Source: Cephaloticoccus sp.
GTDB lineage: Bacteria > Verrucomicrobiota > Verrucomicrobiia > Opitutales > Opitutaceae
Assembly: GCA_030833445.1 (NCBI GenBank)
Contig: JAURHD010000002.1
Location: 186,001 to 250,000 of the forward strand
Length of the DNA stretch: 64,000 nt
Direction: 5' to 3'
The position numbers and the translations under genes are program-made. Positions 14,288-45,068 of the stretch are shown piece by piece (position 1 is the stretch's first letter; each line of letters begins with the position of its first letter). The notes beneath the pieces are model-generated. The model was given only the letters and a program-made list of their open reading frames with translations, was not told the DNA's origin and searched no databases.

Positions 14288-16206
14288 CGTGGATTTCCTT
14301 TCATGGCCACCAGATTGCGGCCGATCCCGATGGGCGGTTTGATGTCGAGATATTGAATGAGTTGTTCACCGATGCGCTTGAATGAAGGTGCGCCAACCAC
14401 TCGACCGTAGGCATTGCCAGTCGACACCTTGGCGTTGTCCACAATTACAGAGATCACGACTTCCGGCTTACTGGCGGGAAAGAAGCCGACAAAGGAACCC
14501 ACGTGATTCCGGCTGGAATAAACGCCGTTGATCAATTTCTGGGCGGTGCCGGTCTTACCCGCGACCTCGTAGCCGGGAATCGCGCCTTCAATAGCCGTGC
14601 CGCCTTCGCGCACAACCCCTTCAAGCATCTTCGCAACTTCCTTGGCGGTCTGCGTGCTGATCACCCGGCGACGGGAAATGGTGTCGAAGCTGTAGACCGT
14701 TTCCCCGGATGCATCGCGAATTTGCTTGATGATTTGTGGACGCAACAGCAACCCACCGCTCGCGATCGTGCCCATTGCGTAGTGAATTTGCAGTGGCGTG
14801 GCCGAAATGCTGTAACCGGCGGGAATGCGGGTGATATCAATGCCGCTCCATTTTTTCACCGGATTGAGAAGCCCGGAAATTTCACCGCCGAATGGGAACC
14901 CGGCTTTTTCGCCAAAGCCGAAGGCCCGCGCATAGTCATAGAGCCGCTGTTCGCCCAAGACCATGCCCAGTTGGGCGGCTCCGACGTTGCTCGAATGGCT
15001 GATGATTTCTGTAACGCTCAGGTGATGGTCATAGTGGTGGTCATCCGGCATGAACTTACGCACCGCACCCTTGTATTCGATTGAACTCAAGGTGCAGTCG
15101 AAGCGTGTATTGGGCCGCACGAGTCCTTCGTTCAGTGCGCCGGATGCCGGCACAATCTTGAAAGTCGAACCCGGATCCAGCTGATCCGTAATGGCAAAAT
15201 TACGCTGCACGCTCAACGGCGCCTTGCTGTATTTGTTGAGGTCAAAGCTCGGGTAATTGCCCATCGCGAGGATGAAGCCGGTGCGGGCATCACTCACAAT
15301 GATCGTGGCCTTGTCCGGGCTGAACTTCTTCGCGATCGCCGCCAGCTCTTCCTCGACCATGTGCTGGATGATGATGTCGGTCGAAAGCACGACATTGAAG
15401 CCATCGACCGGCTGCACCTCACGCGTGCGAAACTGGGCCAACTCGCGCCGCTTGCCGTCCCGTTCACCCTCGCGCCAACCGTCCTGGCCGCGCAGATAAA
15501 AATCAGCATAACTCTCCACCCCAGCGGCGGCGACACCGGCTTTGTTCACATAGCCCACGAGGTGCGCCGCGAGTGAATTGTGTGGATACACGCGCCGGAA
15601 AACCCGATTGCCATAAACTCCCTTGATCTTGAGTGCCGTGATCTTGTCGTAGGTCGTCTCGTCGATGTCCTCCCGAATCTTGGCCCAGCGAATGGAGCGC
15701 TCCTGGGTTGGGCCATCGGCATCATCCAGCACTTCCTCGGGCCCATCCGCGGCGTCATCCTCATCCGTGACCACGGGTTCAGTTTGCTGGACGCTGAATA
15801 CCACCTTCGCGGACGCATCTCCGCCTTGCTTGCTCGTGGCGTCTTCCGTCCGCACAGTGCGAGTCTTGTTCGTAAATAGACGCTCGATTTTGGCCAAGGG
15901 CAAACCGGTCAGGGTCGCCAGTTCCGGCCACTTGATCCGATCCTCCTCCACCACCGCCTGTGGATCCACGCCCACGATATACATCGACTGATTGGCCGCG
16001 AGCAGGTGCCCGTGCGTATCATAAATCACTCCTCGACGTGCCGGCTCTACGATCACTTGCCGCCGGACTTGCTCGATATAGCCGAGCAGCTTCCCGCGAT
16101 CAATTACATGCAGGAAGACCAACCGCGTGCCGATCCCTGCGAGACACAGGAAGACGCCGGCTGAGAGCAGGAAAATGCGGTAGGTGGATGCAAAGCCTTT
16201 GGACAT
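14284..16206 (-). CDS. ftsI: Division-type class B penicillin-binding protein (FtsI/PBP3-like transpeptidase)
   Basis: Periplasmic transpeptidase anchored by one N-terminal helix (about 10-32), which cross-links septal peptidoglycan with FtsW. Active-site motifs are STFK (347-350), SSN (405-407) and KTGT (551-554). The pedestal domain contains an unusual acidic, probably flexible insert (about 122-170, many D and E residues). No PASTA domain follows the transpeptidase domain. 640 residues. ATG lies 6 bases after the ftsL stop. Confidence 0.94.
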   Translation of the reverse strand: MSKGFASTYRIFLLSAGVFLCLAGIGTRLVFLHVIDRGKLLGYIEQVRRQVIVEPARRGVIYDTHGHLLAANQSMYIVGVDPQAVVEEDRIKWPELATLTGLPLAKIERLFTNKTRTVRTEDATSKQGGDASAKVVFSVQQTEPVVTDEDDAADGPEEVLDDADGPTQERSIRWAKIREDIDETTYDKITALKIKGVYGNRVFRRVYPHNSLAAHLVGYVNKAGVAAAGVESYADFYLRGQDGWREGERDGKRRELAQFRTREVQPVDGFNVVLSTDIIIQHMVEEELAAIAKKFSPDKATIIVSDARTGFILAMGNYPSFDLNKYSKAPLSVQRNFAITDQLDPGSTFKIVPASGALNEGLVRPNTRFDCTLSSIEYKGAVRKFMPDDHHYDHHLSVTEIISHSSNVGAAQLGMVLGEQRLYDYARAFGFGEKAGFPFGGEISGLLNPVKKWSGIDITRIPAGYSISATPLQIHYAMGTIASGGLLLRPQIIKQIRDASGETVYSFDTISRRRVISTQTAKEVAKMLEGVVREGGTAIEGAIPGYEVAGKTGTAQKLINGVYSSRNHVGSFVGFFPASKPEVVISVIVDNAKVSTGNAYGRVVGAPSFKRIGEQLIQYLDIKPPIGIGRNLVAMKGNPR

Positions 16207-36130: not shown

Positions 36131-36315
36131 AAAAGCAAAACTGATTGAGACTTACGTCCCCGCGGTGGCAAGCCTACCCTGCCGCCTGTCGTGACTCGAT
36201 CCGGGCCGGCAAATCCTAGCCGGTTGTGATAATTCCCACGCGTTGCAAAGCGTGTGCGCGTATCGCGTGCCAATTATTTTGTGGGGTCAGGAGTGGGCGG
36301 GCTTCGTCAAAACCC

Positions 36316-36854
36316 GCGGCAATTAAAATCCCGTGATGCTGCACCCCATGATAATCGCCGCCATGGGAATGGCCGTGCCGTTGTGCAGCAACCCGACCAG
36401 TGTGGCCATGGTTCCGCCCACGGCAAATTGCAGTGTCCCCCATCAGCGCAGAGGCACTGCCCACCGCTTTCCCGACCGGTGCCAAAATCGGTGCTACGCC
36501 CATCACCAGCATCAGTGTAATATAAATATGCGACGACTACGTCGCATCAAACCGGTCCCGCACCACCGCCCGGCATGCCATCAAGGCGTTGATCGATCCA
36601 GCCAAGGCATATCCAGCGGTCGCGATCGCAAATATGAGCACGCCCCAAACAACGGACCGCGCGGGCTCAACCGATCCGCCAAGGCCCCATACATCGCCTG
36701 GCCGATCGCCGTGCCGATCATGTAGATCGACAGGGTCAACTGCAAGCGGCCCAACTCGACCCGAAGTCGCCGCGATCTGCGGAAACGCCGGCAGATACAT
36801 ATCGATGCTCAGGGGCACGAGCGGCGAGAAGGAGTCCAGCATAGCACCAGCCAT
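36316..36854 (-). pseudogene. Bcr/CflA-type MFS drug transporter remnant
   Basis: Pieces of one transporter in several frames: VPLSIDMYLPAFPQIAAT (first helix) from 36854; in another frame LTLSIYMIGTAIGQAMYGAL; then FAIATAGYALAGSINALMACRAVVRD ending at a TAG (36537-36539); then LMLVMGVAPILAPV, joined directly to GSASALMG, which normally lies far downstream in this family. There are thus at least two frameshifts, a stop and an internal deletion of roughly 150 or more codons. No function is expected. Confidence 0.75.
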
Positions 36855-36888: not shown

Positions 36889-38718
36889 TTATGCGTTGGC
36901 GATGTTAAGCGCCTCTAGTTCTTCCCACCGCGCAAAAGATTTCGCGTGTTCCATTTCGATCACATCCAGCCGGGTCTTCACCTCGGCAAACTTCGTCGTT
37001 TCGTTTTTGTAAAACACCGGGTCGGCCAGCTTGGCCGCGAGTTCGGTCTGCTCGGTCTCCAACGCTTCGATCCGGGCCGGTAGTTCTTCCAGTTCGCGTC
37101 GCTCCTTGTTGGTCAGCTTGCGCGCCTTGGGTGTAGCCGGGGTCGGTGACCCCGGGGTCTTCCGACCGGGCTCAGCGAGCCCGGCTACAGCCTCTTCCTT
37201 CGCCTTCGCCAGCTTGGCCTTTTCAGTCAACCAGTCGGAATAACCACCCACGTATTCGCCAATCCTGCCCTCGCCTTCGAAGACCAGCGTGCTGGTCACG
37301 ACGTTATCCAAAAAATCGCGGTCGTGACTAACCACAATCAGCGTGCCCTCGTATTCGACCAAAAGTTCCTCCAATAAATCGAGCGTCTCAGCATCAAGAT
37401 CGTTCGTCGGTTCATCCATCACCAGCACGTTGGCCGGCTTGGTAAAGAGGCGGGCGAGCAACAAACGGTTGCGCTCGCCACCAGACAACACCCGGGCGGG
37501 CGTGCGTGCGCGATCAGGAGCAAAGAGAAAATCCTGCAGATAACTGATCACGTGACGGGAGCGGCCGTTGACACTCACGGTCTCGTTGCCGTCGGCGATA
37601 TTTTCGGCCACGGTCTTGTCGCCGTCGATCTGCGCCCGCATCTGGTCGAAATAGAGGACTTCGAGCTGGGTGCCAAGCTTGAGCGTGCCACCTGTCGGGG
37701 TGAGTTCGCCGAGCAACAGTTTGATAAAAGTGGTCTTACCGGCGCCGTTGGGTCCGATGAGTCCGAGTTTGTCACCGCGGGTGAGAATGGTGCTGAAATC
37801 CCGCACCAACGGCACGCCACCGGGATAGGCAAAGGTCAGATTTTCGGCGTCGATCACCTTCACCCCGCTGCGACCGGCGTCGGCCAGTTGCAGTTTGGCG
37901 GTGCCGGAAACTTCGCGGCGCGCACTGCGCTCCGACCGCATCGCCTTGAGCCGGGCCACCCGGCCCATGTCACGCGTGCGGCGCGCCTTCACGCCGCGAC
38001 GCAACCAGACTTCCTCCTGCGCCAGTTTCTTATCGAAGGCGGCCTGCTGTTTCTCCTCGGCCAACAGGAAGTCCTCCTTGCGCACCAGATAGGTGTCGTA
38101 ATCACAGGACCAGCTCGACAGCCGGCCGCGATCGAGCTCGATGATGCGCGTGGCCAGTTTGCGCAAAAAGGCGCGGTCGTGCGTCACGAAGAAGAGCGAA
38201 ATTTTCTCGGTCAGCAAAAAGTCCTCGAGCCACAGGATCGAATCGAGGTCGAGGTGATTGGTCGGTTCGTCGAGCAATAACAGATCCGGCTGGCCAGCCA
38301 GCGCACGGGCCAGCAACGCGCGGCGTTTAAGTCCACCGGAGAGTTCGGCAAATTGCGGTTCGGGTGTCAGGCCAAGCCGCACAATCAAATCCTCGACCCG
38401 CACTTCGCGCTCCCATTCTTCCTCGTGATGATCGGCATTGGGTCGCAATCCGCTGAAGACTACATCGTGGACCGAGCCGGTGACGTCGGACGGAATCTCC
38501 TGCGGCAGGCGCGTATAGACGGCACCATTCGGCCGGAAAACATCGCCGCGGTCAGGCTGCATTTCCCCCGCGATCACTCGCATCAACGTGGTCTTGCCGG
38601 TGCCGTTGCGCCCGAGCAGACACACGCGTTCGCCGGGGTCGATTTGGAAGTTCAAACTGTCCAAAACGGCCGGTCCACCGAAGCTGAGGGAAATATCCAA
38701 CAGGCTGAGCAACGCCAT
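36889..38718 (-). CDS. uup: ABC-F family ATPase (Uup-like)
   Basis: A soluble protein with two ABC ATPase domains and no membrane part, 609 residues. First domain: LGRNGTGKTT, ELSGGLKRR, LLLDEPTNHLD. Second: IGPNGAGKTT, LSGGERNR, VMDEPTNDLD. An interdomain linker and a C-terminal coiled-coil (LEELPARIEALETEQTEL), the DNA/ribosome-binding extension of Uup-type proteins, are present. Uup acts on ribosomes and affects transposon excision. The segment before the coiled coil (PGRKTPGSPTPATPK) is encoded by a REP-like repeat pair. The ATG at 38718 gives the family start MALLSLLDISLSFGG. Confidence 0.92.
   Translation of the reverse strand: MALLSLLDISLSFGGPAVLDSLNFQIDPGERVCLLGRNGTGKTTLMRVIAGEMQPDRGDVFRPNGAVYTRLPQEIPSDVTGSVHDVVFSGLRPNADHHEEEWEREVRVEDLIVRLGLTPEPQFAELSGGLKRRALLARALAGQPDLLLLDEPTNHLDLDSILWLEDFLLTEKISLFFVTHDRAFLRKLATRIIELDRGRLSSWSCDYDTYLVRKEDFLLAEEKQQAAFDKKLAQEEVWLRRGVKARRTRDMGRVARLKAMRSERSARREVSGTAKLQLADAGRSGVKVIDAENLTFAYPGGVPLVRDFSTILTRGDKLGLIGPNGAGKTTFIKLLLGELTPTGGTLKLGTQLEVLYFDQMRAQIDGDKTVAENIADGNETVSVNGRSRHVISYLQDFLFAPDRARTPARVLSGGERNRLLLARLFTKPANVLVMDEPTNDLDAETLDLLEELLVEYEGTLIVVSHDRDFLDNVVTSTLVFEGEGRIGEYVGGYSDWLTEKAKLAKAKEEAVAGLAEPGRKTPGSPTPATPKARKLTNKERRELEELPARIEALETEQTELAAKLADPVFYKNETTKFAEVKTRLDVIEMEHAKSFARWEELEALNIANA
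37133..37188. repeat. GTAG-type REP pair (BIME-like) lying inside the uup coding region
   Basis: GTAG + CCGGGGTC-GGT-GACCCCGG (37133-37155), a 10-bp spacer, then the inverse unit CCGGGCTC-AGC-GAGCCCGG + CTAC (37166-37188). Each half is a perfect 8-3-8 palindrome with a 5' GTAG, the layout of REP sequences recognised by RAYT transposases. Arms differ between halves by paired changes that keep the stem. It lies in frame in the linker before the coiled coil. A related pair is at 44989-45060. Confidence 0.75.
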
Positions 38719-38855
38719 AAGCGGTCCAACGTGCCAGACCCTGGGGGCCATGCGCAAGCGCGTGAGTAAAAATCAATTGCCCGAACCGCATCTAGCTCTT
38801 GCCCCGGGGCCGGCGCTCGACCAATACCAAGGACTTTCTCCCTTACCCATCCCCT

Positions 38856-44988: not shown

Positions 44989-45060
44989 GTAGGGCGGGAT
45001 CGCTGATCCCGCCAACGCATACCTAAAACGACGACAGCGGGATCAGCGATCCCGCCCTAC
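44989..45060. repeat. GTAG-type REP pair (BIME-like) between korB and doxX
   Basis: GTAG + GGCGGGATC-GCT-GATCCCGCC (44989-45013; 9-3-9 stem), 23-bp spacer, and the inverse unit GCGGGATC-AGC-GATCCCGC + CCTAC (45037-45060; 8-3-8). The same layout as the pair at 37133-37188, with compensating stem changes. It lies between two convergent genes and may also terminate both transcripts. Confidence 0.8.
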
Positions 45061-45068
45061 ATCAAACC

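Follow-up and report, generated by a model that had tools for sequence, protein, structure and literature searches.

The gene uup in the analysed window, i.e. the whole stretch of 64,000 nucleotides that was studied, carries a palindromic repeat that lies completely within its reading frame. Very probably, a REP dimer of the GTAG superfamily landed in the unstructured linker between two domains of the ABC-F ATPase Uup and is now translated as part of this linker. A single gene shows here how selfish DNA can turn into protein sequence: the palindrome limits the frame that survives, and hence the peptide, and the disorder of the protein decides which site survives.

Structure of the REP dimer in uup

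The gene uup is located on the minus strand (36889..38757), encodes 622 amino acids from the listed TTG start and was assigned by matches to PDB and Pfam. The REP dimer comprises 56 bp on the same strand (37133..37188), its tags point outward, and it codes for the 19 Uup residues 524-542 (VAGLAEPGRKTPGSPTPAT). From 37133 to 37188 the layout is GTAG, a hairpin (37137-37155), a spacer of 10 nt (37156..37165, minus strand), a second hairpin (37166-37184) and CTAC. In the direction of the coding strand, hairpin 1 (37166..37184, minus strand) reads CCGGGCTC GCT GAGCCCGG, and hairpin 2 (37137..37155, minus strand) reads CCGGGGTC ACC GACCCCGG. Both units consist of a GTAG tag, a perfect stem of 8 bp and a loop of 3 nt, and both have the shape given for the GTAG REP superfamily in Table 1 of PMC3733652, with GTAG at one end of a stem-loop, a stem of 5-13 bp and a loop of 2-20 nt. 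The original prediction of a 56-bp pair of GTAG hairpins, in frame in the Uup linker before the coiled coil, was confirmed. Its statement that the length is a multiple of three was wrong, as 56 leaves a remainder of 2 and the other five dimers of the genome measure 47 bp.

The window contains two places (the REP in uup and 44994-45055) at which perfect hairpins with an 8-bp stem and a 3-nt loop form a pair less than 60 nt apart; the same count in 100 dinucleotide shuffles of the window gave a mean of 0.01 and a maximum of 1. The hairpin pattern CCGGGNTCNNNGANCCCGG matched the window five times at up to two mismatches, compared to 0.64 expected matches. The folding energy calculated for the RNA of the coding strand from 37131 to 37190 was -40.3 kcal/mol (z = -6.1), and no Rfam family reached its gathering score between 36800 and 37500. 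The sequence GTAGCCGGG at 14569 was considered as a further unit and rejected, as it showed no hairpin by eye. Downstream of uup (36216-36854), short overlapping ORFs have the look, by eye, of a decayed membrane transporter; Pfam gave no match for the two of these ORFs that were searched.

Position of the REP-coded stretch in Uup

Uup has links to the ribosome and to genome stability. Searched against PDB, the uup product matched Uup itself best (9nlj, E 4.5e-171). Pfam detected ABC_tran in two stretches and ABC_tran_CTD at residues 547-615; the latter is the C-terminal coiled-coil domain that follows the linker (36913..37119, minus strand), with model helices between 550 and 621. The REP lies wholly inside the ORF, with the ABC domains N-terminal and the CTD C-terminal of residues 524-542, so that the REP-coded stretch follows the second ATPase domain and precedes the C-terminal coiled coil.

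A structure model was calculated with AlphaFold2 from 23 sequences (mean pLDDT 81.7, pTM 0.43). The pLDDT fell below 50 at residues 526-544, which nearly coincides with REP residues 524-542, and this segment is flanked in the model by a helix ending at 526 and by the coiled coil from 550. Three further segments showed a pLDDT below 50 (1-13, 256-260 and 284-296). In the model, the low pLDDT at 526-544 is as in disordered segments, and the REP probably occupies a flexible linker that directly precedes the C-terminal coiled coil.

Further copies of the REP in the genome

The genome to which the window belongs has a size of 2.9 Mb and is 97.75% complete. A BLAST search of it with the uup REP yielded three further strong places (E 1.3e-5 or better), and a pattern search revealed six dimers on five contigs, in which some units carry 1-3 mismatches: uup (C22), C2:37167, C71:3795, C71:5496, C27:1181 and C66:47204. 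At three mismatches the pattern search of the genome gave 60 matches in comparison to 22 for the reversed control; therefore, many of the weak matches are due to chance. The uup REP belongs to a small dispersed family, multi-copy as in the GTAG superfamily, and with these other copies genome-wide its predicted status as a REP was substantiated.

Five of the six dimers have a length of 47 bp and consist of two 23-bp units with one base between them. The spacer of the uup dimer is 9 nt, i.e. three codons, longer than the 1-nt spacer of these. Three of the six dimers are located in genes, namely the one in uup and two in one cusA-type gene, and all three are read in the same frame; the remaining three lie outside genes, as judged from ORFs. 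The cusA-type gene with the two in-frame dimers (L002 and L003; G000:C71, 3795-3841 and 5496-5542) codes for a CusA-type metal pump (match to E. coli CusA, E 7.7e-257). The dimers start at residues 429 and 996 of its 1100 residues and, by eye, occupy matching places in the two repeated halves of the pump; the first site corresponds to a 13-residue gap in the alignment with CusA.

The open reading frame of the dimer

In the second frame, the tag GTAG contains the stop codon TAG; in the third, most units have TGA in their loop, which leaves the GTA-GCC frame open. As an inverted pair, the dimer has the same frame open on both strands. Exactly one open frame per strand was found in three of the four GTAGCCGG dimers tested (uup, the second cusA site and C2); in the first cusA dimer, two frames are open on the minus strand. 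The REP in the Uup linker of relative G040 is open in all frames, and the frame rule is therefore specific to the GTAGCCGG family. In these three dimers, the single open frame sets the encoded peptide.

Insertions would survive only in the stop-free frame and at sites where almost any flexible peptide may do. The peptide VAGL(A/V)EPG..PGS.TPAT would then be a by-product of the DNA palindrome and not a selected motif. Both dimer lengths, 56 and 47 bp, leave a remainder of 2 on division by three; provided that the flanks were previously in frame, each event would have brought or lost at least one extra base.

REPs in the uup linkers of relatives

Orthologues were obtained from a draw of 61 family genomes, of which 53 had a clear orthologue and 50 were fetched (own genome included), from nine genomes of the genus (four above the cut-off, own included) and from a named collection of 80 loci, of which 19 were used. 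The 72 ORFs handled were reduced to 68 by removal of the truncated L107 and L108 and the near-duplicates L030 and L098; 61 loci, mostly of other phyla (L109-L169), and the orthologues G008, G035 and G048 were left out of the linker counts. In five of the nine genomes of the genus, some of the five about 97-98% complete, no uup was detected at E 1e-150, and G045 showed a distant ABC-F match only. Possibly, uup was lost in such genomes (G045, G061 and others).

Comparison of uup with relatives, which had been proposed as a check, showed that the dimer is absent from the 67 other non-redundant orthologues; in G020, one lone unit of this type occurs at this place. Multi-copy REPs were present in the same linker in four of these 67 orthologues. 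The searches of the respective genomes with these REPs gave 72 (itself included; G040), 47 (G020), 46 (G037) and 44 (G050) matches, where one palindrome can match both strands and is then counted twice, so that the REP places are fewer than the matches. The single unit in G020 is of the GTAGCCGG type, the linker of G037 carries an array ending in the GTAGCCGG type, and the REPs of G040 and G050 represent GTGG-tagged families. The five REP-bearing linkers, that of the window included, belong to five genera. One more orthologue (G065, same genus) possesses a REP-like palindrome in the linker, for which only the palindrome itself was found in the 73%-complete genome; G065 was counted as doubtful and kept out of the REP-free set.

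A strict rule of hairpin plus tag gave four matches in three ORFs within 12,174 nt of linkers and none in the remaining 118,896 nt of the 68 ORFs; it does not catch the REPs of G040 and G050, which were identified by eye and then corroborated by their further copies. In 30 codon shuffles, the rule gave on average 0.2 matches in the linkers and 1.6 in the rest. For evenly spread matches, the chance that those of all three ORFs fall into linkers is about 8e-4, a value to be read with the fact that the window was chosen for having one. Palindromes could in principle also be a chance product of GC-rich codons, and single alanine-rich hairpins do occur in several REP-free linkers. The shuffle results and the numerous copies scattered over the genomes concerned speak against this, and so does a control linker with a non-REP hairpin: its own genome contained no second match, and of three other genomes two gave a single weak match. 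The probability of such a chance origin is negligible, and the repeat counts refute it.

With the linker left out, the tree spread the REP-bearing rows over several places. The sisters of G020 and G050 are REP-free, as is L091, the sister of G040; G037 stands near G040 and L091 but carries other REPs. The nearest row to the window is the doubtful G065. REPs inside genes are already known; here, the same site is hit more than once.

This recurrence in the linker of one gene, together with the very stable RNA fold (z = -6.1) and stems that are still perfect, might also indicate that the REP is kept for a function, either through a hairpin in the uup mRNA or through a peptide that tunes the motion of the coiled coil. 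However, the REPs of the other genera differ in sequence and in peptide, none was recognised in 62 of the 68 orthologues, and perfect stems are likewise predicted by a recent insertion. A retained function is considered very unlikely, and insertion into a tolerant linker remains the preferred reading.

Length of the linkers

The REP-bearing linkers comprise 61, 65, 65, 61 and 61 amino acids (mean 62.6), that of the window 61. The 62 REP-free linkers have a mean length of 59.5 amino acids and range from 51 to 69. With REP boundaries set by hand, the linkers minus the REP would have lengths of 42, 35, 48, 41 and 53 amino acids (42 in the window), and four of these five would be shorter than all 62 REP-free linkers. 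As the lengths with and without a REP are nearly equal, the REP seems to replace linker sequence, or the linkers shrink back afterwards. A coupled or later loss of the old linker would have held the length near 60 residues. The length excess of the REP-bearing linkers is slight (62.6 versus 59.5 amino acids; Mann-Whitney P 0.037); it is such as some net insertion would give, and it counts against replacement. Of the predicted insertion into a flexible linker, the flexible linker probably holds, but a simple gain of length does not (61 amino acids in comparison to 51-69).

G040 and L091 form the closest pair; their proteins are 91% identical, no REP was seen in the latter, and both linkers have 65 amino acids. 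An alignable empty site was found neither in this pair nor in seven other pairs, because the linkers diverge too fast. The five REP-bearing Uup linkers constitute a natural series for the question whether selection sees the length of a linker and not its sequence.

Origin of the insertions

A Y1 transposase of the RAYT type, perhaps an enzyme that is no longer present, may have copied the REP DNA into uup. The search for Y1 transposases in the 97.75% complete genome of the window identified one gene only (C2:14725, L009), and no RAYT flanked by the same REP was found there. The gene at C2:14725 lies between 29-bp inverted repeats without a REP-like hairpin, in which it differs from a REPtron; this arrangement corresponds to the TIRYT type described in PMC3733652. 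A similar arrangement with 30-bp repeats was observed for a Y1 gene of G020 (L269).

In the relatives the situation resembles that of REPtrons: among 26 Y1 loci in six genomes, nine had REP-like units on both sides, and these were distributed over four relatives (G040, G037, G050 and G020). In G040, the REP core of the uup linker recurs as inverted copies on either side of one Y1 match (L267). The GTGGGAGCGAGCTTGCTCGCGAC unit occurs in uup of G040 (L173) and on both sides of L267; it presumably resembles a common Pseudomonas REP.

Alternatively, the REP in uup might stem from an exchange between REP copies, by recombination or gene conversion, or from the action of an enzyme other than a RAYT, as the sole Y1 gene found in the genome has long inverted repeats. 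Against this origin, which is considered unlikely, stand the REP-flanked Y1 genes in relatives and the flanks of four copies, which by eye have at most one base per side in common. Movement by a RAYT is likely for the family, with no REP-flanked Y1 gene found in the own genome. The proposed search of the genome for a RAYT gene yielded no cognate RAYT.

REPs in other genes of relatives

Outside uup, 59 distinct REP-matching places in five relatives were inspected, which represent the best matches and not a random sample. Eleven of them are located in ORFs with Pfam domains around the site. Pfam was run on 20 hand-picked ORFs of the 52 loci with a spanning ORF of at least 200 amino acids (uup and repeats included), eight of the 20 had no Pfam family, and L183, with domains only after the REP, was not counted; for this sample, 11 is thus a minimum number. 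That REPs avoid genes holds only weakly in this lineage: three of the six own dimers and 11 of the 59 places in relatives lie inside genes, judged from ORFs.

In five of the 11 cases the REP is positioned between two domains (DEAD_2 helicase, SpoU methylase, an exosortase-DUF3485 protein and dihydrolipoyl acyltransferase in two genera). REPs within domains were found in SNF2, sulfatase, monomeric isocitrate dehydrogenase, an AcrB-type pump and SMC, and that of a sodium symporter follows just after the best of two domain stretches; the cases within domains speak against survival in linkers only. The REPs of the dihydrolipoyl acyltransferases occupy the linker from the lipoyl to the E3-binding domain in both genera (L212:577-1791 and L226:505-1860).

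Tentatively, REPs might represent a standing supply of linker sequence in this bacterial family: disordered linkers would be exchanged again and again by different REP families without growing in length, and the quickly evolving linkers of these bacteria would consist in large part of decayed REP DNA. This generalisation is doubtful; the cases for it are Uup in five genera, dihydrolipoyl acyltransferase in two, the exosortase protein and the SpoU methylase.

Comparison with known repeats

GTAG REPs within genes were published in 2013 and were most numerous in Opitutus terrae (PMC3733652, BMC Genomics). More than half of the GTAG palindromes of O. terrae form dimers or groups, and they are found inside ORFs and translated (PMC3733652). 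The element in uup resembles these intragenic REPs as a GTAG-tagged palindromic dimer inside an ORF. According to the same source, many in-gene REPs lie in genes of DNA synthesis and repair, and two Xanthomonas species carry REPs in recB at roughly the same position; its authors suggest that such REPs may be neutral in flexible linkers or loops, and speculate that some may have altered repair proteins and favoured mutators (PMC3733652). The main text of PMC3733652, whose gene list is a supplement, does not name uup, and a literature search found no REP in uup. New in comparison to the passages of PMC3733652 cited here are the occupation of one linker by several REP families across genera, its unchanged length and the rule of the single open frame.

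The palindromic elements of Rickettsia are similar in that palindromic repeats lie in frame inside genes of likely functional proteins (PMC3733652). They differ in lineage, and RPE-4 and RPE-6 of R. conorii are of the CGTC type (PMC3733652); compared by tag, the uup REP carries GTAG and not the CGTC of the intragenic R. conorii repeats.

The window contains a second REP dimer of another family (GTAGGGCGGGATC...GATCCCGCCCTAC; 44990..45061, no strand assigned), which is intergenic by eye, with similar units elsewhere in the genome (contigs C15, C19 and C44).
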